From Nonomuraea rubra (GTDB taxonomy: Bacteria > Actinomycetota > Actinomycetes > Streptosporangiales > Streptosporangiaceae), in contig NZ_JACHMI010000001.1 of NCBI RefSeq assembly GCF_014207985.1, positions 6,865,001-6,929,000 of the forward strand: a stretch of 64,000 nucleotides of DNA, written 5' to 3'. Positions 14,906-33,391 of the stretch are shown piece by piece. Below the pieces are notes generated by a model that saw nothing but the letters and a program-made list of their open reading frames with translations, did no database searches and was not told the DNA's origin. Made by a program: the position numbers and the translations under genes. Positions within the stretch are counted from its first letter, which is position 1, and every line of letters starts with the position of its first letter.

Positions 14906-17428
14906 TCAGCGTCCTGACGGCGGACGTCCGCCGGGCAGGTGGACCGACGCCACGGAGCAGGCCGCGGCGGCGAAGAGCACCGCCACGAACACCGGCGAGC
15001 TCCGGACCAACGCCAGGTTGTGCACCAGTCCCGCGATCACGGCGAGCTGGACCGCCGCCGTCAGCTCCGGCCGGTCCTCGACCGCCTGGGAGGCCACGAA
15101 CAGCAGCACCAGCACGGCGGGCAGGTACGCGGGGATCTGCGGGTAGTCGGAACCGCCCTCCCACAGGTAGACGCCGCACACGTCCACGACGACCAGCAGC
15201 GTGGCCGCCGCTCCCAGGACCAGCGGCGGCCGCGCCTCGCCCGCTCGCCGGCGCTGAACAACCCGTGCCAGAAAGAACCCGAGCAGGAGCAGAACCCCCG
15301 AGAACACCACCAGCCAGGGCGTCTCCTCGCCGGGATCGTCCCTCATGTCCCGAGGGAACCGCAGGATGATGACGATCATGATCAGCGTCAGCGCCCCGCC
15401 CACGGCCCCGGCGACTCTCCACCGCAGGCCGCCCGGCTGGGCCAGGGTCGCCTCGGTGCACGCGACCAGCAGGAGCAGCAGCCCGGATATCGTGATGACG
15501 ATCAGTCCGGCGCCGCTGAAGGCCGACTCGAAATGGGCGAACACCCCCAGGTGCACCGCCGACAGGCCGGCGGCCGCGCCGAGGCTCGCAGTGCGCCATC
15601 GGCCCTCCGGCAGCAGGCCGGCCGCGAACGCCGCTGCGATCAGGAGCCCCAGCCAAATGGTGTAGTCGGCGACCACGACCGTGTTGAGCATGGCGGCGAA
15701 CTGGGGGGTGTACCCGGGGCCGACCATCAGCAGCAGGCCCGCCAGCAGCGCCAGCCCGCGCGACGCGAGGAGCAGCCACGCACCTGCGCCCGGCGTGCCG
15801 CTGTCCCCGCCGGACGGGGCGACGGCGTCCGGCGGCACGGCGCGGCCGACGTCCGCGGGTGTCGCGTCGCGGGCATCATCGGGCGAGACATCGGGCACAC
15901 CCTCGGACCGAACCGCGCGCACGACATCGGGCACACCCTCGGACCGAACCGCGCGCACGACGTCGGCCACACCCTCGGACCGGGCTGCGGGCACGATATC
16001 GGCCACGCCCTCGGACGGAGCCGCAGGCACGACGTCGGGCATGACCGCCGGCCGGACCGCGGGCACGGCGTCGGGGTGGGCGAGGGCGCGTGACGCCGCC
16101 GCCGAGACGGACCGGCTGTCGTCGTCGGCCAGCTCCTCCAGGGCCAGCCGCGCCGCGAGCGCGAGCCCGGCGTGGCGGCTGTGCCGCAAGCGCGCCAGCT
16201 CGCCGATCGCCCCCTCCCTGATCTTGGCGATCGGGTGGTCGACGGCCTCCTGAAGTTCGGTGGGCAACGGCGCGGGCCGATCCACGGGACGGCCACGCCG
16301 GGCGATGATCAGATCTCCCTGAACGTCGAACGTCCACTTGCCCGGCGTCTGACTGGGCGTGACCGCCCGTACCTTGTCGTAGACGAAGTCGTACAGCTCG
16401 TGGATGCCCACGAAGCCGTCCTGGTCGCGGTCGGCCTCGCCGGTCTCGAGCCCTTCCACCAGCGCTCTGGTGAACACCGAGGGCGAGGTCGTCTCCTGCG
16501 CGTCGGCGAGGTCGGTCCCGTCGAAGGCGTACTCCAGGGCGTTGGAGGCCGTGATGACCACTCGCCCGCGCCCGCCGAACTGCTCCTCGACGTGCACGTC
16601 CGTGCCCGCCCTCGGCAGCGCGCCGCGGGCGAAGGCGCCCGCGTAGCAGCAGTCGAGCAGCAGGACGATGCGCCGGCAGCGGCTGCGGCCCATCCGCCGG
16701 TTGACGAACTCCGCCGACACCGCGGTGGCGGCGAGCCTGTTGAGCTTGGTGCTGGGCGTGGCGAAGTACAGCTCGCCGTTGTCGTCCTTGACCCCGTGGC
16801 CGGAGAAGTGCAGCAACAGCAGATCGTCAGGATGGCGGTCGGCGAAGAACTCCTCCACGGCCTCGCTGACGACAGCGGTGGGCTCGTTGAGCATCGTGCG
16901 CACGTCGAAGCCGCCGATCGCCTGGTCGCCCAGCACCCTAGCCAGCGCCTCGGCGTCCAGGGCGGGCGCCCGCAGCCGCCGCAACCCGGGATCGCCGAAC
17001 TCGTCGCCGGCCACGATCAGCGCGAGGCGGCGCCCGGGCCGGGGGGATGCGTCCGGCCGCCCGCGGCGGCGCAGCCACACGTCGGCGAACTCGCGCTGCT
17101 CCTTCGACGGGATGCCGGTCAGCTCCAGCACGTCGCCGTCGATCTCCAGCTTGACGGAACGATGCTGGTGGCGGTTGAGCCAGGCGGTCACGGCGTTCAC
17201 GATCGAGGCCAGCAGTTCCGTACCGGCGAGCGCGATCACCAGGCCGCCGACCGTGAACGACAGCACCGCCCTGGCGCCTTCCGGGATCTCCCCCGCCTCG
17301 GCGGTGCCGGCCACCACGTCCAGTTCGAGCAGTTCCTCCCTCAGCCTGGCGGTGGCCTCGTCCAGTTCCTGGGGATCGGCGGCCGCGTCGACCACCCGTA
17401 GCCGCAGCTGCACCGTCTCGCTCACCAT
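14906..17428 (-). CDS. EACC1-caspase-HEAT-transmembrane protein (conflict-system type)
   Basis: 840 residues; ATG at 17428 with GGAGG upstream. Residues 1-125 resemble the effector-associated constant component EACC1: an N-terminal helical part, a hydrophobic segment at 58-82 and VKLEIDGDVLELTG. Residues 132-300 are a caspase-like peptidase with His211 in HFSGHG and Cys261 in LLLDCCYAG. An EF-hand-like loop DRDQDGFVGIHE spans 333-344. Residues ~385-455 are HEAT-like (EGAIGELARLRHSRHAGLAL). A 12-residue repeat linker (465-515) follows, then about 8 membrane segments from 550 to the end. Family knowledge suggests a membrane-anchored suicide or immune protease. The trigger and substrates are unknown. 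Confidence 0.85.
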   Translation of the reverse strand: MVSETVQLRLRVVDAAADPQELDEATARLREELLELDVVAGTAEAGEIPEGARAVLSFTVGGLVIALAGTELLASIVNAVTAWLNRHQHRSVKLEIDGDVLELTGIPSKEQREFADVWLRRRGRPDASPRPGRRLALIVAGDEFGDPGLRRLRAPALDAEALARVLGDQAIGGFDVRTMLNEPTAVVSEAVEEFFADRHPDDLLLLHFSGHGVKDDNGELYFATPSTKLNRLAATAVSAEFVNRRMGRSRCRRIVLLLDCCYAGAFARGALPRAGTDVHVEEQFGGRGRVVITASNALEYAFDGTDLADAQETTSPSVFTRALVEGLETGEADRDQDGFVGIHELYDFVYDKVRAVTPSQTPGKWTFDVQGDLIIARRGRPVDRPAPLPTELQEAVDHPIAKIREGAIGELARLRHSRHAGLALAARLALEELADDDSRSVSAAASRALAHPDAVPAVRPAVMPDVVPAAPSEGVADIVPAARSEGVADVVRAVRSEGVPDVVRAVRSEGVPDVSPDDARDATPADVGRAVPPDAVAPSGGDSGTPGAGAWLLLASRGLALLAGLLLMVGPGYTPQFAAMLNTVVVADYTIWLGLLIAAAFAAGLLPEGRWRTASLGAAAGLSAVHLGVFAHFESAFSGAGLIVITISGLLLLLVACTEATLAQPGGLRWRVAGAVGGALTLIMIVIILRFPRDMRDDPGEETPWLVVFSGVLLLLGFFLARVVQRRRAGEARPPLVLGAAATLLVVVDVCGVYLWEGGSDYPQIPAYLPAVLVLLFVASQAVEDRPELTAAVQLAVIAGLVHNLALVRSSPVFVAVLFAAAACSVASVHLPGGRPPSGR
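15890..16036 (-). repeat. 36-bp tandem repeat encoding a 12-residue unit in the caspase linker
   Basis: About four copies of a 36-bp unit encode variants of DVVRAVRSEGVP (for example DIVPAARSEGVA and DVVPAAPSEGVA). Adjacent copies are almost identical at DNA level. They form a Pro/Val/Asp linker between the HEAT-like region and the membrane domain. Length variation would alter reach, not catalysis. Confidence 0.88.
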
Positions 17429-26222: not shown

Positions 26223-26432
26223 TCTGCCGTCACGCTCGGCGATGGCCATGGAGGCGGGTTCTGTGCGGTGGACGATGAGGACATGATCTTCGAGGAAGAG
26301 GCCATCGAGACGTCGACTTGGCGGGGATGGTTGCGGCGGGTCGGGGCCAGTGGCCGCCTTCCCCGGTCCAGGCGGTGGCGGTCTCGGGGCTGATGCCCAA
26401 GAGGTCCGTGAGAACGGCAGCGAGCGACTAAT

Positions 26433-26450
26433 TTGACAGCAATCTAATCA
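26433..26450. promoter_or_regulatory. ArsR-type operator copy 1 (TTGACAGCAATCTAATCA)
   Basis: This 18-bp element shares TCTAATCA with sites at 31178-31215 and is related to the element before arsR (29417-29435). It lies about 50-70 bp upstream of the flavoprotein ATG (26501). TTGACA could also serve as a -35 box, so repressor binding would cover the promoter. The preceding 26223-26432 holds no gene. Confidence 0.6.
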
Positions 26451-26471
26451 ATGAGGCATGCTTCCTGCTAC

Positions 26472-26490
26472 TTCGACAATCGTCTAAGCA
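26472..26490. promoter_or_regulatory. ArsR-type operator copy 2 (TTCGACAATCGTCTAAGCA)
   Basis: It resembles TTCGACAAGCTTCGAATCA before arsR and sits just ahead of the AAGGAG ribosome site of the flavoprotein gene. Two spaced copies at this promoter suggest tight, possibly cooperative, repression. Confidence 0.55.
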
Positions 26491-26500
26491 AGGAGCCATG

Positions 26501-27898
26501 ATGAGTGACGGATGCTGCGGCACCACCACGCCCTCGGAGGCGGAGCAGTTCACCGCCGGCCCGGAGACCAGCACACTGCCGGTGGTGGTCATCGGGGCGG
26601 GTCCGATCGGCCTGGCCGCCGCCGCCCACCTGGCCGAGCGGGGCCTCGGCTTCCTGATCCTGGAGGCGGGCGGGCAGGCAGGCGCGTCCATCGCCAAGTG
26701 GGGTCACGTACGGGTGTTCAGCCCGTGGCGCTACAACATCGACCCCGCCGCCCGCCGCCTGCTGGAAGAGGCGGGCTGGCAGGCGCCGGACGAGGACTGG
26801 CTGCCGACCGGCGCCGAGCTCGTCGACGACTACCTCGCCCCGCTGGCCAAGGCCCTCGGCGACCGGGTACGGCTGAACGCCGAGGTCACCGCGATCACCC
26901 GGCTGGGCTTCGACCGGGTCCGGACCAACGGCCGCGAGGACGTACCGTTCCTGATCCGCCTGCAGGACGGCGAGGAGCTGTACGCCCGCGCGATCATCGA
27001 CGCCTCCGGCACCTACACCAGCCCCAACGTGCTGGGCGCGAGCGGCCTGCCGGCGCACGGCGAAGCGGAGGTGGCACAGCTCATCGACCACGCGCTCCCC
27101 GACGTCCTCGGTGCCGACCGCGCCACCTACGAAGGTAAGCACACCCTCGTCGTCGGCGCCGGCCACTCGGCCGCCACCACGCTGCTGGCCCTGGCCCAGC
27201 TCGAGAACACCCCGATCACCTGGGCGATCCGCGCGGGCAACGCCAGCCGCACCTACGGCGGCGGCGACGCCGACGCGCTTCCCGCGCGCGGGGCGCTGGG
27301 CAGCCGCCTGCACGCCCTGGTGGAGTCCGGCCGGATCACCCTGCTGACCGGCTTCTACACCCACCGCGTCCGGGGAACCGGCCAAGGCGTCGAGGTGGTC
27401 AGCCGCGACCCGTCCGGCGCGGAGCGGACAATCGCCGTGGACCGGATCGTGTCGGCCACCGGCTACCGCCCCGACCACTCCATCGCGAGCGAGCTGCGCC
27501 TCGACCTGGACCCGGTCCTCGGCTCCACCCGCGCTCTCGCCCCGCTGATCGACCCGAACCAGCACTCCTGCGGCACGGTCCCGCCGCACGGCGCGGACGA
27601 GCTGGCCCATCCCGAGCCCGGCTACTACGCGATCGGCGTCAAGAGCTACGGCCGCGCGCCCACCTTCCTCATGGCCACCGGCTACGAGCAGGCCCGCTCG
27701 GTCGTCGCCGCACTGGCCGGCGACTGGGAGGCCGCACGCGACGTGCAGCTCGACCTGCCCGAGACCGGTGTCTGCTCCTCCAACCTCGCCGAGGCCCAGG
27801 AGCAGCGCGTCGGCCTGGCCACCGGCATCAGCGGCGGCCTGCTGTCCGCCCCGCTCCCTTTGGTGACCGCCTCGACCGGCGGCGGCTGCTGCGGCTGA
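26501..27898 (+). CDS. NAD(P)/FAD-binding flavoprotein with CCG motifs at both termini
   Basis: 465 residues; of two adjacent ATGs, 26501 is better spaced from AAGGAG. FAD motif VVVIGAGPIGLAAAAHLAER near the start, a second dinucleotide motif LVVGAGHSAATTLLALAQ in the middle, and SATGYRPDHSI near the C-terminus mark a flavin monooxygenase/thioredoxin-reductase-like fold. Unusually it begins MSDGCCG and ends GGGCCG, with vicinal Cys pairs at 5-6 and 463-464 that could bind As(III). It is preceded by two ArsR-type boxes and followed by other arsenic genes. A role in arsenic redox or sensing is inferred; the reaction is unknown. Confidence 0.82.
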   Translation: MSDGCCGTTTPSEAEQFTAGPETSTLPVVVIGAGPIGLAAAAHLAERGLGFLILEAGGQAGASIAKWGHVRVFSPWRYNIDPAARRLLEEAGWQAPDEDWLPTGAELVDDYLAPLAKALGDRVRLNAEVTAITRLGFDRVRTNGREDVPFLIRLQDGEELYARAIIDASGTYTSPNVLGASGLPAHGEAEVAQLIDHALPDVLGADRATYEGKHTLVVGAGHSAATTLLALAQLENTPITWAIRAGNASRTYGGGDADALPARGALGSRLHALVESGRITLLTGFYTHRVRGTGQGVEVVSRDPSGAERTIAVDRIVSATGYRPDHSIASELRLDLDPVLGSTRALAPLIDPNQHSCGTVPPHGADELAHPEPGYYAIGVKSYGRAPTFLMATGYEQARSVVAALAGDWEAARDVQLDLPETGVCSSNLAEAQEQRVGLATGISGGLLSAPLPLVTASTGGGCCG

Positions 27899-27913: not shown

Positions 27914-28174
27914 ATGTCCGACGGCTACCCCACCGCGGCGCAGAAAGAGGCGCTGAGCCTGATCCGCGACCACGAGCCGATGCCCACAGCCCGGCTCGCG
28001 GAGCGGCTGCTGGCCGCCCGCGAACCCAGCACCAACCCCGGCTACGCCCGCGCCGTCACCCGCATGGCCGGAACCCTGGCCTGGCGACTGCAAGCACAGG
28101 GCTTCATCACCGCCAACGGCACCGACACCTGGCGCACCACCTCCTCCGGCCGCGCGCTGATCTCATGCGCCTGA
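27914..28174 (+). CDS. Small winged-helix-like protein, arsenic island
   Basis: 86 residues; ATG at 27914 behind GAGGAGGAG. The sequence PTAAQKEALSLIRDHEPMPT, ARLAERLLAAREPSTNPGYA, GTLAWRLQAQGFITANGTDT and TWRTTSSGRALIS suggests three helices and a wing, as in small MarR/wHTH-like DNA- or protein-binding modules. No Cys sensor except one near the end. It overlaps the MFS start by 10 nt, so it is in the flavoprotein-MFS operon. I do not recognise a named family. Confidence 0.65.
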   Translation: MSDGYPTAAQKEALSLIRDHEPMPTARLAERLLAAREPSTNPGYARAVTRMAGTLAWRLQAQGFITANGTDTWRTTSSGRALISCA

Positions 28175-29415
28175 GCTCCGGCGATACCAGCGACCCGGCC
28201 GTCGCCTCCGTCAGCGAGCGCGGCGGCCAAGGCCGTTTCCACCAGGGCCGGCGCATCGTCGCCGCCCTGGCCGTCACCCAGACCATCGGCTACGGCGTCC
28301 TCTACTACGCCTTCTCCGTCTTTCTCGCTCCGATGACCCGCGACCTGCGCGCCGGCGGCACGCAGGTCGCCGCCGCGCTCACCCTCGCCGTCCTGACCAC
28401 CGCTCTGTGCGCGCCGCTGGTCGGCCGGTGGCTGGACACCCACGGCGGCCGAGGCCTGATGACCGCCGGGTCGGTGCTCGGCGCGCTCGCCGTCCTGGCC
28501 TGGTCCCAAGCTCACAACCTGCTCCAGCTGTACGGGGTGTTCCTCGCCATCGGCATCGCCTCGGCCATGGTGCTGTACGAGCCGGCCTTCGCCGTCATCA
28601 TCGCCTGGTTCGACGGCCCGGCCCACGGGCACGGCCGGGCCGGCGCGCTGCTCGCGCTGACCATCGTGGCCGGGTTCGCCTCCTCCATCTTCCTGCCGCT
28701 GACCGGCCTGCTCGTCGAGCACTACGGCTGGCGCCAGGCCCTGGTCATCCTCGGCCTCGGCTACGGCGTGGCGGCGATCCCGCTGCACGCCCTGGTCCTG
28801 CGCCGGCCCGCCCACCACACCGCCAAGGCCAAGGCCGAGGCACGCGGCGAGCTGGTCAAGGCCGCCGTACGGGCGCGTCCGTTCTGGTTGCTGGCGGCGG
28901 CCTTCACCGCGCATGGCGGCGCGGTGGCCATCATCGCCGTCCTGCTGGTCACCTACCTGACCCACCTCGGCCATCCCCCGGTCTTCGCCGCCACCATCGC
29001 CGGACTGCTCGGCGTGCTCTCGGTGACCGGCCGCCTGGTCACCACCGGCCTGCGCCGCCGCTGGTCCGCCGCGCCGGTCGCCGCGGGTGTCTTCGCCCTG
29101 CAAGGCGCAGGCGCGCTGCTCCTGCCGGTCGTCGGAGCCGGCGTGCCGGGCGCGATCGGATGCGTCCTGCTCTTCGGGATCGGCTTCGGCGTCGGCACGA
29201 TCACCCTGCCGCACCTGCTCGCCGAACGGTACGGCACCGCCGCCTACGCCAGCCTGTCCGGCCGGATCGCCCTGTTCTCGGTCGCCGACAAGGCCGCCGC
29301 TCCGCTGGCCGCCGTCGCCCTGGCCCAGGTGGCCGGCTACGGCTGGGTCATGGGTGCGGTGGCCGCCGCCTGCGCGATCGCGGCATTGGCCCTGCTCGCC
29401 TATCACCGCCTATAA
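28165..29415 (+). CDS. MFS transporter of the arsenic island
   Basis: 416 residues with about 12 membrane segments: RIVAALAVTQTIGYGVLYYA first, GRWLDTHGGRGLMTAGSVLG for the TM2-3 loop, and SLSGRIALFSVADKAAAPLA near TM11. It overlaps the small wHTH gene by 10 nt and lies immediately before arsR, in an operon with the CCG flavoprotein. MFS proteins in such settings export arsenicals (ArsJ- or ArsK-like in role), but direct orthology is not claimed. It probably exports the product of the flavoprotein or of ArsO. Confidence 0.85.
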   Translation: MRLSSGDTSDPAVASVSERGGQGRFHQGRRIVAALAVTQTIGYGVLYYAFSVFLAPMTRDLRAGGTQVAAALTLAVLTTALCAPLVGRWLDTHGGRGLMTAGSVLGALAVLAWSQAHNLLQLYGVFLAIGIASAMVLYEPAFAVIIAWFDGPAHGHGRAGALLALTIVAGFASSIFLPLTGLLVEHYGWRQALVILGLGYGVAAIPLHALVLRRPAHHTAKAKAEARGELVKAAVRARPFWLLAAAFTAHGGAVAIIAVLLVTYLTHLGHPPVFAATIAGLLGVLSVTGRLVTTGLRRRWSAAPVAAGVFALQGAGALLLPVVGAGVPGAIGCVLLFGIGFGVGTITLPHLLAERYGTAAYASLSGRIALFSVADKAAAPLAAVALAQVAGYGWVMGAVAAACAIAALALLAYHRL

Positions 29416-29416
29416 T

Positions 29417-29435
29417 TTCGACAAGCTTCGAATCA
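29417..29435. promoter_or_regulatory. ArsR-type operator (TTCGACAAGCTTCGAATCA)
   Basis: The site contains a TTCGA...TCGAA inverted repeat and begins just after the MFS stop, 15 bp before the arsR ATG. It resembles known actinobacterial ArsR boxes and the copies at 26472-26490 and 31198-31215. Autoregulation of arsR-arsO is inferred. Confidence 0.7.
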
Positions 29436-29449
29436 GCAGGGGGAGCCGG

Positions 29450-29827
29450 ATGGCCGCCACCACGACCCCGTGCTGCGCACCGATCGCACGCGAGCCGCTG
29501 TCCGAGACCGACGCGGCCGACCTCGCCGTCATGCTCAAGGCGGTCGCCGACCCGGTCCGGCTGCGCCTGCTGTCGATGATCGGATCTCACGCGGGCGGCG
29601 AGGCGTGCGTGTGCGACCTCACCGACGCGTTCGACCTGACCGCCCCGACCATCTCCCACCATCTCAAGGTGCTCCGCACGGCAGGGCTGATCGACGGCGA
29701 ACGGCGCGGCACCTGGGTGTACTACCGGATCATCCCCGAGGCGGTGAACAAGCTGGGCGCCCTGTTCGCACCGCTGACCCAGCCTTCACCCGGCAGGCCG
29801 GGAGACCTCGAGCTCCTGCCCGTATGA
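29450..29827 (+). CDS. arsR: ArsR-family arsenic-responsive repressor
   Basis: 125 residues; ATG at 29450 with AGGGGGAG upstream. The winged-helix core is LKAVADPVRLRLLSMIGSHA, then CVCDLTDAFDLTAPTISHHL, KVLRTAGLIDGERRGTWVYY. A Cys pair near the N-terminus (TTTPCCAPI) and CVCDL in the HTH region supply thiols for As(III). This arrangement is seen in several actinobacterial ArsR proteins. Its stop overlaps the arsO start (ATGA). It should repress the flavoprotein, arsR-arsO and CCG-peptide units through the shared operator family. Confidence 0.92.
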   Translation: MAATTTPCCAPIAREPLSETDAADLAVMLKAVADPVRLRLLSMIGSHAGGEACVCDLTDAFDLTAPTISHHLKVLRTAGLIDGERRGTWVYYRIIPEAVNKLGALFAPLTQPSPGRPGDLELLPV

Positions 29828-30888
29828 CCCGAGCTCCCCGCCCGGTCGACGTCCTGGTCATCGGCGGCGGCCAGGCAGGTCTGGCCGCCGGCTACTACCT
29901 GCGCCGCGCCAGGGCCGACTTCGTCATCCTGGACGCCCAGGAGGAGCCCGGTGGGGCGTGGCGGCACGCCTGGCCGTCGCTCCGGCTGTTCTCCCCCGCC
30001 CAGTACAGCTCGCTGCCCGGCCGCATGATGCCCACCCCGCCCGGCGGCGGCTACCCCAGCGCCACCGACACGGTCGCCTACCTCGCCGACTACGAACAGC
30101 GCTACCAGTTCCCGATCGTCCGGCCCACGACCGTGCATGCGGTACGGCGAGAGGAGCGGAGCCTCCTGGCCGACACCGACGCCGGCACCTGGCAGGCCCG
30201 CCACGTGATCAGCGCCACCGGCACCTGGTGGCGGCCTTACGTGCCCTACTACCCTGGCATCGGCGACTTCCAGGGGAAGCAGTTGCACGCCGCCGGCTAC
30301 CGTGGCCCGGAGCCGTTCCACGGCCGGCGCGTCCTGATCGTGGGCGGCGCCAACTCCGGCGCGCAGATCCTGGCCGACGTCTCCACCGTCGCCGACACCA
30401 CCTGGGTCACCCTGCGCCCACCTCGCCTGCTGCCCGACGAGGTCGACGGCCGGGCCCTGTTCGCCCTGGCCACCCGCCAGACCCAGGGCGCGGACGGCGT
30501 GGGCTCGCTGGGCGACATCGTGGCCGTCCCACCGGTCCGGGAGGCCCGCGACCGCGGCGTGCTCAAGGCCCAGCCGATGTTCGACCGCATCACCAGCACG
30601 GGCGTCACCTGGCCGGACGGCACCAGCCTCGACTGTGACGCCATCATCTGGTGCACCGGCTTCCGCCCGGACCTGAGCCATCTGGCTCCGCTCCGGCTGC
30701 GCGGCCCTGACGGGCTCATCCCGGTGGAGGGCACCCGCGCCGTGGGCGAGCCTCGCCTGCACCTGCTCGGTTATGGCGACTGGACAGGCCCCGCCTCCGC
30801 CACTTTGATCGGCGCGAGCCGCACGGCCAGAGACACCGTCGCCGAAATCGTGCGAGCCATGAGCCCCGGCGAGGTTGCCAGCCGGTGA
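29824..30888 (+). CDS. arsO: ArsO-like flavin-dependent monooxygenase
   Basis: 354 residues, ATG overlapping the arsR stop. Motifs: VDVLVIGGGQAGLAAGYYLR (FAD), GGAWRHAWPSLRLFSPAQYS, HVISATGTWWRPY (ATG motif), RRVLIVGGANSGAQILADVS (NADPH) and AIIWCTGFRPDLSHL. This is the ArsO/CzcO-like class of single-component flavin monooxygenases found in ars operons, whose exact substrate is debated. Unlike the 26501 flavoprotein it has no terminal CCG motifs. Coupling to arsR implies induction by arsenic. Confidence 0.88.
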   Translation: MTRAPRPVDVLVIGGGQAGLAAGYYLRRARADFVILDAQEEPGGAWRHAWPSLRLFSPAQYSSLPGRMMPTPPGGGYPSATDTVAYLADYEQRYQFPIVRPTTVHAVRREERSLLADTDAGTWQARHVISATGTWWRPYVPYYPGIGDFQGKQLHAAGYRGPEPFHGRRVLIVGGANSGAQILADVSTVADTTWVTLRPPRLLPDEVDGRALFALATRQTQGADGVGSLGDIVAVPPVREARDRGVLKAQPMFDRITSTGVTWPDGTSLDCDAIIWCTGFRPDLSHLAPLRLRGPDGLIPVEGTRAVGEPRLHLLGYGDWTGPASATLIGASRTARDTVAEIVRAMSPGEVASR

Positions 30889-31177: not shown

Positions 31178-31215
31178 TGATTAGATTGCCGTCTATCTTG
31201 ACGAGCTTCTAATCA
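31178..31215. promoter_or_regulatory. Double ArsR-type operator with inverted TGATTAGA / TCTAATCA arms
   Basis: TGATTAGA (31178-31185) and TCTAATCA (31208-31215) form a perfect 8-bp inverted repeat 22 bp apart. The right half, TTGACGAGCTTCTAATCA, matches the box family. The left half read on the reverse strand (TAGACGGCAATCTAATCA) closely matches copy 1 at 26433-26450. The block precedes the CCG-peptide gene by about 60 bp and includes a TTGACG that may be the -35 box. Confidence 0.65.
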
Positions 31216-31273
31216 GCGTGCCAGGATGGCCATTGTTTAGAAGTTCATCGAAATAAGGGGAAAGGACCGCAAG

Positions 31274-31522
31274 ATGACGCAAGAGACGCGTGGGGGCTTC
31301 ATCGGCAACCCGGCCGAGGCATTCGCTCCGGCGGCAGCCGGAGGTTGTTGCGGTGCCCCCGCCCCGCAGGCCGTCTCGCCGGCCGGAGGAGACACCTCCG
31401 CAGGCTGCTGTGGCGACCCGGCACCCGTCGCGCAAGCAAGCGAGGGCGGCGGTTGCTGCGGCCAGGCACCGGCCTCGAGCCGGGAGCAGGCGGTTACCGC
31501 CACCGCGGCATGCTGCGGATGA
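31274..31522 (+). CDS. 82-residue protein with four CCG motifs (putative metalloid-binding peptide)
   Basis: ATG at 31274 with AAAGGA upstream. Cys pairs occur at 25-26, 45-46, 61-62 and 80-81, each followed by Gly: AGGCCGAPAP, AGCCGDPAP, GGCCGQAPA and the C-terminal ACCG. Spacers are Ala/Pro/Ser/Gly-rich and probably disordered; there are no other Cys and no signal peptide. The stop overlaps the M28 peptidase ATG (ATGA). ArsR-type boxes upstream place it in the arsenic regulon. I infer binding of As(III) or a related metalloid, or a modified peptide processed by the peptidase. I do not know a described family. Confidence 0.75.
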   Translation: MTQETRGGFIGNPAEAFAPAAAGGCCGAPAPQAVSPAGGDTSAGCCGDPAPVAQASEGGGCCGQAPASSREQAVTATAACCG

Positions 31523-32757
31523 CGTCCTCCAGCCCGGTGCCGGCGCGCTCCACGCCGGCACCGGCGTCCGCCCTGGAGCAGCTCTCCTCCGCACACATGC
31601 TCGCCACCGTGCGGGAACTGGCCGGCGATCGCTACGCCGGGCGGCGTGTGGGCACGCCCGGCGGCCGGGCCGCCGGCGTCTGGCTGGCCGGCAGCCTTCG
31701 CGAACTGAACGCAGAACCCGAGACGATGCGCTTCCCCGTTTCCGGCGTGCGTGAGTTGTATGAGACGCCGGTCCTGCAATGGCGGATCGGCGGGCAGCTG
31801 AGACGCTTGGAACATCGCCGGGACTTCGTCGAGCACCTCGCGTCGGCCGAGTTGCCCATGGCACGTACTGCTCCCCTGGCCACGATCGAGGACGCCGACC
31901 TGCACGGCCGCTGGATACTGGCAGGTGCCGAGCAACTGGGACAGGCGTGCGAACGGGCCGCAGCAGGCCAGGCAGCCGGGATTCTCACCACGCGCGGCAC
32001 CGATGCCGAGGGCTGGATGCCCAAGATGATCGCGGGGCCGGCCGTTCAGCCCGTGCCGATCCTGGCCTTGCGTACCGACCTGCACCAGCAGCTGTCCGGC
32101 GCCTCCCGTGACGCCGCAGTGCAGGTGACGGCATCGATGCCGATGAGAGTGGTCTCCACCGGCGGGATCAACGTCGTGGGCCGCCTGCCGGGCAAGGCTC
32201 ACCCCAACGGCACCACGCGAGTGCTGCTGACCGCGCACTTCGATGGCGTCGGTGACGATCCGGCGCGCCGTCTGCCCGCCGCTGCCGACAACGCCTCCGG
32301 CGTGGCCGTCGTCCTCGAGGCCGCCCGGGCCTTGGTGACGGTTGGCATCCCAGACGGACTGGACGTGCGGGTCGCGTTCCTGGACGGGGAGGAAGCAGGG
32401 GCGCTGGGATCAGCGCACCACGCCGCGGCCGTCCCGGCAGGCACGCTGGTGATCAATATTGATGGGGCGGCGCAACTTCACGAAGCCGCCTCGGTCGAGG
32501 CGGGTGGTCCCGCCCATGCTCTTCTGGCCACTCTGGACCAGGCCGCTCGTGCAACCGGAGTGCCTCTGCGGGCCGGCGCGATGGCCTCGGACAACCGCCG
32601 CTACGCCGCAGCAGGGCTGGCGGCGATCGGCATCGGCATGGGCATGCCCGGCTACCAGACCCCGGCGGAAACCCCGGACCGCGTCGAGGAGGACACCCTC
32701 CTCGCGGCCGCCCGCCTGCTGATCGCCACCGTCCTGGGACTGGCTTCCCCTGGATGA
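31519..32757 (+). CDS. M28-family metallopeptidase-like protein coupled to the CCG peptide
   Basis: 412 residues, no signal peptide. Zinc-ligand pattern of M28 aminopeptidases: His240 and Asp242 in LLTAHFDGVG, Asp257 in AAADNASGVA, Glu291/292 in FLDGEEAGALGS and Asp315 in VINIDGAAQ. The last ligand position, normally His in a YxHTPxDT motif, reads GYQTPAETPD, so Gln380 replaces His. A PA-like insert precedes the catalytic part. The ATG overlaps the CCG-peptide stop. It may trim or release the Cys-rich peptide, or act on arsenic-containing peptides. Activity is uncertain given the Gln. Confidence 0.78.
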   Translation: MTSSSPVPARSTPAPASALEQLSSAHMLATVRELAGDRYAGRRVGTPGGRAAGVWLAGSLRELNAEPETMRFPVSGVRELYETPVLQWRIGGQLRRLEHRRDFVEHLASAELPMARTAPLATIEDADLHGRWILAGAEQLGQACERAAAGQAAGILTTRGTDAEGWMPKMIAGPAVQPVPILALRTDLHQQLSGASRDAAVQVTASMPMRVVSTGGINVVGRLPGKAHPNGTTRVLLTAHFDGVGDDPARRLPAAADNASGVAVVLEAARALVTVGIPDGLDVRVAFLDGEEAGALGSAHHAAAVPAGTLVINIDGAAQLHEAASVEAGGPAHALLATLDQAARATGVPLRAGAMASDNRRYAAAGLAAIGIGMGMPGYQTPAETPDRVEEDTLLAAARLLIATVLGLASPG

Positions 32758-32801
32758 CCTGCCTGCCCGGTCCGGTTACGGAACGCACCGGGCAGGACGA
32801 A

Positions 32802-33225
32802 AGACAGCTCACCCTGGCCACCCCGCGCGACCTCGTCGCCGGGCCGGAAGATCCCTACTACGCCCACCAGACGTTACGGGTGTGGGAGCCGCTGGTGACG
32901 GTGGACGACAAGCTGCGGCCCGTCCCTGCCCTGGCCGCGTCCTGGGCCTACAGCATGGTGCAGCCGCCGAAGGCGTTCACCGGCTCGGGCGGCTTCGCCG
33001 GCAAGCCGATCGGCACGGGCCCGTACACGCTGGCGAGCTGGACCAGGGGCCAGCAGGCCGTGCTCACCGCCAACCCGCGCTACCACGGCGCCACCCCCGC
33101 CTGCGACACGATCGTGGTCAGAGTGATCCCGGACGCCAACGCCCGCGTCGCCGCGTTGCGGGCCGGCGAGGTGGACGGGCTGATCGACAAGGGCGCGCTG
33201 CCGGCCGGCACCGCCACGCCGGGCG
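32802..33225 (+). pseudogene. Peptide/nickel ABC binding protein (SBP family 5), internally deleted
   Basis: The plus strand reads RQLTLATPRDLVAGPEDPYY, HQTLRVWEPLVTVDDKLRPV, PALAASWA, then jumps to FAGKPIGTGPYTLASWTRGQ, ANPRYHGATPACDTIVVRVI and AALRAGEVDGLID. These are the N-terminal and central parts of an SBP_bac_5 protein; about 80 residues between SWA and FAG are missing and so is the C-terminal third. No signal peptide remains. Confidence 0.75.
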
Positions 33226-33391
33226 CGGGCTTCCTGCCGCCGGTCTTCGGCGACCTCGCCGACCCCGGCATCCACGCCGCCCACGATCCCGCCCGAACAC
33301 GTGAGCCGGTGGCCGCCGCGGGAGCGCCGGCGCGGCCCGTCACCATCCTGACCTCCTCGGCCGGGACCGGCGAGCCGGCGGATGGACGGGT

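Follow-up and report, generated by a model that had tools for sequence, protein, structure and literature searches.

A tandem Cys-Cys-Gly peptide and a co-encoded M28-family peptidase in a predicted ArsR regulon of Nonomuraea rubra and related actinobacteria

The stretch of DNA analysed here (64 kb, hereafter the window) belongs to the 12.88-Mb genome of Nonomuraea rubra, and near its middle a short gene for a cysteine-rich peptide (the CCG peptide) is followed by a gene for a peptidase of the M28 family, in a neighbourhood that also encodes an ArsR/SmtB repressor, an ArsO-family monooxygenase, a transporter and a flavoprotein (Table 1). An earlier sequence-only reading of this DNA had described an 82-residue protein with four CCG motifs whose stop overlaps the start of an M28 gene, and this arrangement was confirmed: the peptide frame is preceded by a Shine-Dalgarno-like AAAGGA, and its TGA overlaps the ATG of the peptidase. 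Directly behind the peptidase gene, and overlapping its stop, lies an SBP_bac_5 fragment (32754-33300) that looks like a gene remnant; its best NCBIfam name is NikA with 61.6 of 393 bits, and a metallophore link, which this frame had suggested, was not retained, given its fragmentary state and the lack of any match to an SBP query in 48 relatives. The 86-residue protein has only a sub-threshold MarR match, and relatives of it stand between flavoprotein and MFS genes in other loci.

Table 1. Genes and operator-like sites around the CCG peptide, in window coordinates.
Feature	Position	Strand	Remarks
Operator-like site	26430..26449	.	20.9 bits, before flavoprotein
Operator-like site	26470..26489	.	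24.3 bits, before flavoprotein
FAD-dependent oxidoreductase (flavoprotein)	26498..27898	+	466 aa; CCG near N terminus and at C terminus
86-aa protein	27914..28174	+	between flavoprotein and MFS
MFS transporter, ArsK-like	28165..29415	+	NF033733 168.5 bits, below ArsK cut-off of 400
Operator-like site	29415..29434	.	22.4 bits, before arsR
ArsR/SmtB repressor	29450..29827	+	N-terminal vicinal Cys pair C8-C9; best solved relative 6j0e
ArsO-family flavin monooxygenase	29824..30888	+	NF040505 534.1 bits, above cut-off of 425
Operator-like site	31179..31198	.	24.0 bits, before CCG peptide
Operator-like site	31195..31214	.	15.1 bits, overlaps TTGAC -35-like hexamer, before CCG peptide
Operator-like site	31235..31254	.	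26.4 bits, just before CCG peptide
CCG peptide	31274..31522	+	82 aa; N-terminal GGFIGNPAEAF module, four CCG units, CCG end
M28 peptidase	31519..32757	+	412 aa; Gln380 at a position held by His in structurally solved relatives

Four CCG units were reached in none of 200,000 shuffles of the peptide's 82 residues. Among 47 homologous peptides (that of the window and 46 from relatives), four CC pairs are present in 46 and three in one, unpaired cysteines occur in none (0/47), and a CC pair stands at or adjoins the C-terminal end in all 47; GGF is kept in 46/47, and Trp, Tyr and His are all absent from 41/47. The consensus reads GGFxGDxxEAFxPPaaGGCCG, followed by more CC units and a CC or CC(G) end, with GGF as the sole invariant non-cysteine motif of a 27-row alignment. 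Several synonymous codons are used at the conserved Cys and Gly columns, which argues that selection acts on the peptide as a protein, and over 689 pairs with pS of 0.05-0.6 the median pN/pS of the whole frame is a modest 0.64, so that the linkers appear weakly constrained and drift while the four CC pairs are kept. A second small frame with a four-cysteine motif resembling FCDSCxQVCTxxCRA precedes the peptide, at 600 bases or less, in 11 of the 47 upstream regions (L021, L024, L025, L026, L028, L031, L032, L033, L035, L044 and L046), and the one member that was checked has no Pfam match.

A profile of the peptide family matched 453 protein clusters at E≤0.01 (7995 candidates scored); no Pfam domains are found in the 120 listed of these clusters, and the names shown there are hypothetical or uncharacterized. 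The window peptide matched none of the families of Pfam and NCBIfam and the profile had no match in the PDB, on which grounds membership of a known small-protein family was rejected. More specifically, the metallothionein profile was matched neither by the window peptide (Pfam, NCBIfam) nor by 27 family members (Pfam), and the ArsD profile (PF06953) gave no Pfam match to the window peptide or its 27-row family. The only Pfam matches among the 27 members are Galaxin_repeat (seven members, best E 0.00045), which probably reflects the spaced CC pairs, and NICE-1 (one member). It could be argued that the small frame is no functional protein at all and is simply a leader that couples translation of the M28 gene, as the stop/start overlap and the high pN/pS in the linkers would allow; however, with conserved residues that keep the amino acid while varying the codon, and with so many protein clusters matching the family profile, this explanation has a negligible chance of being right and was rejected.

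The association of peptide and peptidase recurs across genomes. A contig scan with the window peptidase as query gave 48 loci in Nonomuraea, Streptosporangium, Microtetraspora, Herbidospora, Amycolatopsis, Kribbella, Catelliglobosispora, Longispora and others, including one MAG, and a homologous peptide lies just upstream of the M28 gene in 46 of them, down to 39% peptidase identity. The earlier interpretation had been made to depend beforehand on conservation of the small frame in relatives, and conservation is what was found. As for the two misses, the peptide is split between two frames in L041, and L047 matches only peptidase residues 351-405 and has no peptide. In 15 of the 47 rows, the window's among them, the stop of the peptide and the start of the peptidase share 4 bases; for the remaining rows the distance was taken to the start of the tblastn match and not to the gene start. 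In the reverse search, whose genome counts are lower bounds since 38 or 14 candidates were scored per genome, the peptide profile alone gave 10 places in 9 of 150 family genomes (window's own included), with an M28 relative beside the peptide at all 10 in the fetched loci, and in 396 phylum genomes it matched the window's own peptide and one 533-residue FemAB-like protein, in whose locus no M28 match stands beside it. At two of the 10 places (L060, L061) the peptide is divergent and the peptidase beside it reaches only 36-37% identity, which points to an association of long standing. The peptidase itself is rare, being found at E≤1e-60 in one of 396 phylum genomes, the window's own (4 candidates scored per genome). 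The expected co-occurrence with arsR was also found, a relative of this gene being present in most of the 48 loci, divergent from the pair in those of Amycolatopsis, Kribbella and Micromonosporaceae. One copy of the pair (L040:6674-7977) stands behind an ArsP_1-family permease gene, which suggests a link to organoarsenical efflux.

By its domain the window peptidase belongs to the M28 family (Peptidase_M28, 94.9 bits, cut-off 21.3); its closest named relative comes from N. rubra (96%), and its AF2 model (pLDDT 92.0) has PaAP, 2ek8 and BSAP, all M28 aminopeptidases in the PDB, as best solved fold relatives. No signal peptide is visible by eye in its N terminus, and the enzyme is apparently cytosolic. 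In an alignment of 121 peptidases (the window's and 120 listed of 640 matches), His240, Asp257, Glu291, Glu292 and Asp315, to which we assign the metal-ligand and catalytic roles of M28 enzymes, are invariant (121/121), and position 380, which we take to be that of the last zinc-ligand His, holds Gln in 118, His in two and Arg in one; a 50-row alignment has 45 Gln, four His and one Arg there. With Gln380 the window peptidase lacks the full set of co-catalytic metal ligands. The sequence-only reading had noted that M28 enzymes are aminopeptidases; the M28 domain and fold stand, and aminopeptidase activity is not to be assumed, because Gln replaces the last ligand in nearly the whole alignment; judged from these residues, the protein may not be an ordinary M28 enzyme. 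The peptidase tree is compatible with one change between the His and Gln groups, moderately supported (79/92); among the four His rows, three (L045, L060, L061) sit on long branches. All three carry the peptide as well, and hence, if His is ancestral, the pair would be older than the change. A peptide encoded in this position might alternatively regulate the peptidase, its GGF module keeping the M28 enzyme switched off as long as no As(III) is bound by the CC pairs; the translational overlap would fix the ratio of the two products and GGF is, as noted, the only invariant motif outside the cysteines, but four dithiols exceed the need of a switch and we know of no such peptide inhibitor of M28, so that this scheme seems improbable to us.

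Upstream of the peptide genes lie palindromes of the type TTAGA-N6-TCTAA, from which an operator matrix was built with 70 sites of 42 out of 46 relatives, the window left out, although the seed pattern had been chosen after viewing upstream regions, window's included. In the window six sites exceed 15 bits, all before the pair, arsR or the flavoprotein operon, and the next best reaches 7.0 bits; across 400 kb of control DNA from this genome (twenty stretches of 20 kb) there was one site, of 16.6 bits, and ten shuffled windows gave one site. The scan in this genome covered the window, the 20 control stretches and the stretch of a separate arsR-acr3 operon, where a site of 21.4 bits stands just before arsR. 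This operon starts with an ArsR-family gene (HTH_5, 63.0 bits), includes acr3 (435.9 bits, cut-off 282.8) and has behind it a gene of the low-molecular-weight phosphatase type, in our reading arsC. In the relatives, sites above 15 bits precede 44 of 46 peptides, a count that is not independent because those regions supplied the seeds, and sites precede 40 of 44 arsR genes tested (absent before four) and 25 of 31 flavoprotein genes tested (absent before six), where arsR and a pair divergent from it have one common upstream region in these counts. By this computation the pair, arsR, the flavoprotein operon and the acr3 operon have an operator-like site in common, and the predicted regulon reaches upstream to about 26430, beyond the interval of the earlier reading (31274-32757), which takes in the pair. 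The earlier proposal that the pair lies behind ArsR-type boxes gains support from the three predicted sites above 15 bits before the peptide.

The repressor of the window is a member of the metalloregulators (NF033788, 93.4 bits, cut-off 55) and stays below the cut-off of the Rv2640c type (NF041413, 107.5 of 155 bits); its CC pair aligns with the CC of 6j0e, a structure whose entry name is arsenic responsive repressor ArsR. What looks like a second ArsR-like family, of small proteins with CC, often FCC, at the end, was seen in the window's own genome (L123:11538-11885) and in L001, L003, L011, L019, L027, L032 and L039, the Pfam check (HTH_5) covering L001.

The peptide is not alone in its cysteine pairs, since the flavoprotein of the same predicted regulon bears similar CC units on its tails. 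The C-terminal tail contains CC in all 30 aligned homologues (window and 29 of 37 homologues above 250 bits in called genes), and over the 37 it lies within the last 90 residues in 35 and within the last eight in 24; of the two exceptions, one is an additional copy in L004 and the other a fragment truncated where L007 ends, and the L017 copy, counted here as having CC, carries a frameshift close to its end. In the model of the window flavoprotein (pLDDT 73.7 overall) both CCG tails are of low confidence, and they are read as disordered. The model matches FNR, TrxR, YpdA and N-hydroxylases alike with low TM-score, and assignment as a YpdA-like disulfide reductase was rejected as weak (47.4 of 339.9 bits). 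Furthermore, a match was present in 121 plasmid records, and the six distant homologues chosen from these, on plasmids of Actinomycetota, Pseudomonadota and Bacillota, all have CC tails (6/6). An ArsR-family gene lies near each of the five annotated ones, three of which also have an arsenic transporter or arsC nearby, and M28 is absent from the features listed near these five in the incomplete feature tables. The flavoprotein does not need the pair, since its CC-tailed form occurs without the pair nearby, and the GGCCG units common to peptide and flavoprotein make thiol exchange between the two plausible.

CC tails appear again in clusters related to organoarsenic biosynthesis, of which the bisenarsan cluster is described as needing the EPSP synthase bsnM and the mutase bsnN for its product (PMC12159101). 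At 17 loci with such a mutase (bsn-type loci), CC stands in the last six residues of 24 of 268 complete called genes, in 13 of the loci, vs 0/335 control genes from the genome of the window; the Fisher P of 2e-9 overstates independence, because the 24 genes form six homologous groups (6 ATP-grasp, 6 FemAB-like, 4 glyoxalase, 3 CMD, 3 GNAT and 2 flavoprotein, names partly assigned by homologous group). Three of the loci (L063-L065) had first been found via the peptide profile, and the 14 chosen by mutase alone give 14 of 226 genes in 10 loci. Operator-like sites are found in 9 of the 17 loci and absent from 8, and the CCG peptide is present in three (L063, L064, L093). L060 and L061, the places of the divergent pair, fall within the stretches L063 and L064, which, like the bisenarsan cluster, have EPSP-synthase, iPGM and glutamine-amidotransferase family genes and in each of which four biosynthetic proteins (CMD, GNAT and two ATP-grasps) end in CC.

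Further proteins of these loci are worth recording. L063:11181-16476, L064:2915-8259 and L093:826-6115, in loci with bsnM/bsnN-like genes, encode ATP-grasp, GNAT and CMD proteins whose last two residues are CC. In six bsn-type loci (L065, L083-L087) a FemAB-like protein contains 7-9 CC pairs and finishes in CCG (L062 and L083 were checked against Pfam), and L088-L091 encode glyoxalase-family proteins with an added CC tail (Pfam checked for L088), which we read as ArsI/CadI-like. L065 and L083-L092 belong to the genus of genome G331, which we take to be Streptomyces. Between an ATP-grasp gene and ABC transporter genes of L063 stands a further short, very cysteine-rich frame (16443-16631; MDDDMAGMGCCDTCGC...).

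Such surroundings invite the thought that the peptide is a precursor, cut by the M28 enzyme into small CCG-bearing peptides or an exported arsenical metabolite in the manner of a ribosomal natural product. A small gene with a peptidase and a conserved GGF part before a variable remainder would agree with it, as would the two clusters where a divergent form of the pair accompanies genes of EPSP-synthase-like, iPGM-like, ATP-grasp and GNAT type. However, four CC pairs kept amid drifting linkers are unlike a defined core, and no BsnN-like mutase was found in the window's genome (63/63 candidates scored, the same query matching in other genomes). We consider the precursor scheme unlikely, though the least so of the alternatives, and organoarsenic biosynthesis for the window itself was rejected on account of the missing BsnN-like gene.

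Our preferred reading, with a probability of about 0.6, is that the pair forms an accessory module of an ArsR-controlled arsenic regulon, in which the peptide would act as an As(III) sink or shuttle and the peptidase would turn the peptide over. It builds on the gene, its conservation, the pairing, the common operator-like sites and the CC tails, which the computation establishes. As(III) would release ArsR from the operators and the pair would be expressed, a response to arsenic that the operator, the type of ArsR and the neighbouring genes point to. A small, probably disordered peptide with four vicinal dithiols would then be made and, since vicinal dithiols bind As(III), could hold the metalloid as a short-lived sink. 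Thiol exchange could pass As(III) to CC-bearing partners, first of all the flavoprotein with its CCG tails, and efflux would follow through the ArsK-like MFS transporter in the window or Acr3, encoded at another place in the genome. The peptidase, translated together with the peptide, would recognise the GGF module or the CCG end and trim or degrade the peptide, whereby arsenic would be released and cysteine recovered; this trimming or recycling role is the weakest step of the explanation. Counted against the module are also that CC pairs bind Sb, Bi, Hg, Cd and Cu, that most of the peptidase clade has Gln at a metal-ligand position, that the peptidase is rare, that the flavoprotein occurs without the pair nearby, and that operator-like sites are absent before some arsR and flavoprotein genes and from nearly half of the bsn-type loci. 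One could indeed see in the peptide a general buffer of thiol or soft-metal type, akin to a metallothionein (for Sb, Bi, Hg, Cd or Cu), that sits in an ars regulon only by coincidence, for which its cysteine content and the common lack of Trp, Tyr and His would speak; but the operator-like site in common with the acr3 operon, the arsR relative in most loci and the CC tails in arsenic clusters leave this with little probability. In sum, the sequence-only reading is partly supported: the peptide is conserved, almost always paired with the peptidase, found repeatedly beside arsR, placed behind a common predicted operator and outside the named families.

If the accessory-module reading is right, the peptide would be a gene-encoded, recyclable bacterial As(III) carrier. 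A wider and tentative idea, which we think somewhat more likely wrong than right, is that of an actinobacterial arsenic-trafficking system in which CC(G) serves as an address, and a tandem-CC carrier recycled by M28 delivers As(III) to CC-tailed enzymes for detoxification (flavoprotein, ArsI-like glyoxalase) and for the building of organoarsenicals (ATP-grasp, GNAT/FemAB and CMD in bsn-type clusters). The CC tail would then be one visible feature that links detoxification operons with actinobacterial organoarsenic natural-product clusters, and a handle on how toxic As(III) is moved to enzymes while the cell's own proteins are spared.

Several known systems resemble parts of this one. ArsD is an As(III) metallochaperone with a thioredoxin-like fold and ArsA as partner, whose vicinal cysteine pairs are As(III) sites; it is likewise small, part of an arsenic regulon and endowed with such pairs, but it has no sequence match to the peptide, no counterpart of its fold and ArsA partner was seen, and ArsD was found in none of 10 genomes searched (9 with the peptide and G331), one of 14 control genomes having a match. 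Bacterial metallothioneins and plant phytochelatins are also short, cysteine-rich metal sinks, and the Cys-Gly end of the peptide resembles phytochelatin; here, in contrast, cysteines come in CC pairs only, no Pfam metallothionein matches and a peptidase is coupled. PaAP, BSAP (YwaD) and 2ek8 agree with the window peptidase in fold and in five of six metal or catalytic positions, whereas the latter has no visible signal peptide, Gln for the last His (as in 118/121) and a fixed partner peptide. The bisenarsan cluster finds its likeness in L063 and L064, where bsnM/bsnN-like genes adjoin CC-tailed enzymes and the divergent pair, and differs in that the window's genome is without a BsnN-like gene; the word "cysteine" does not occur in the review on these clusters (PMC12159101). 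The ars cluster of Rhodococcus BCP1, induced by arsenic, includes arsR, arsO and efflux genes (PMC6514093), all of which are also found in the window's regulon, and "peptidase" is a word absent from the main text of that article. Searches of open-licence PMC papers listed no account of the CCG peptide-M28 pair, in agreement with the earlier remark that no described ars operon was known to have it, and the pair would be a component of bacterial arsenic defence not described before, with a carrier whose role would be comparable to that of phytochelatin or ArsD.
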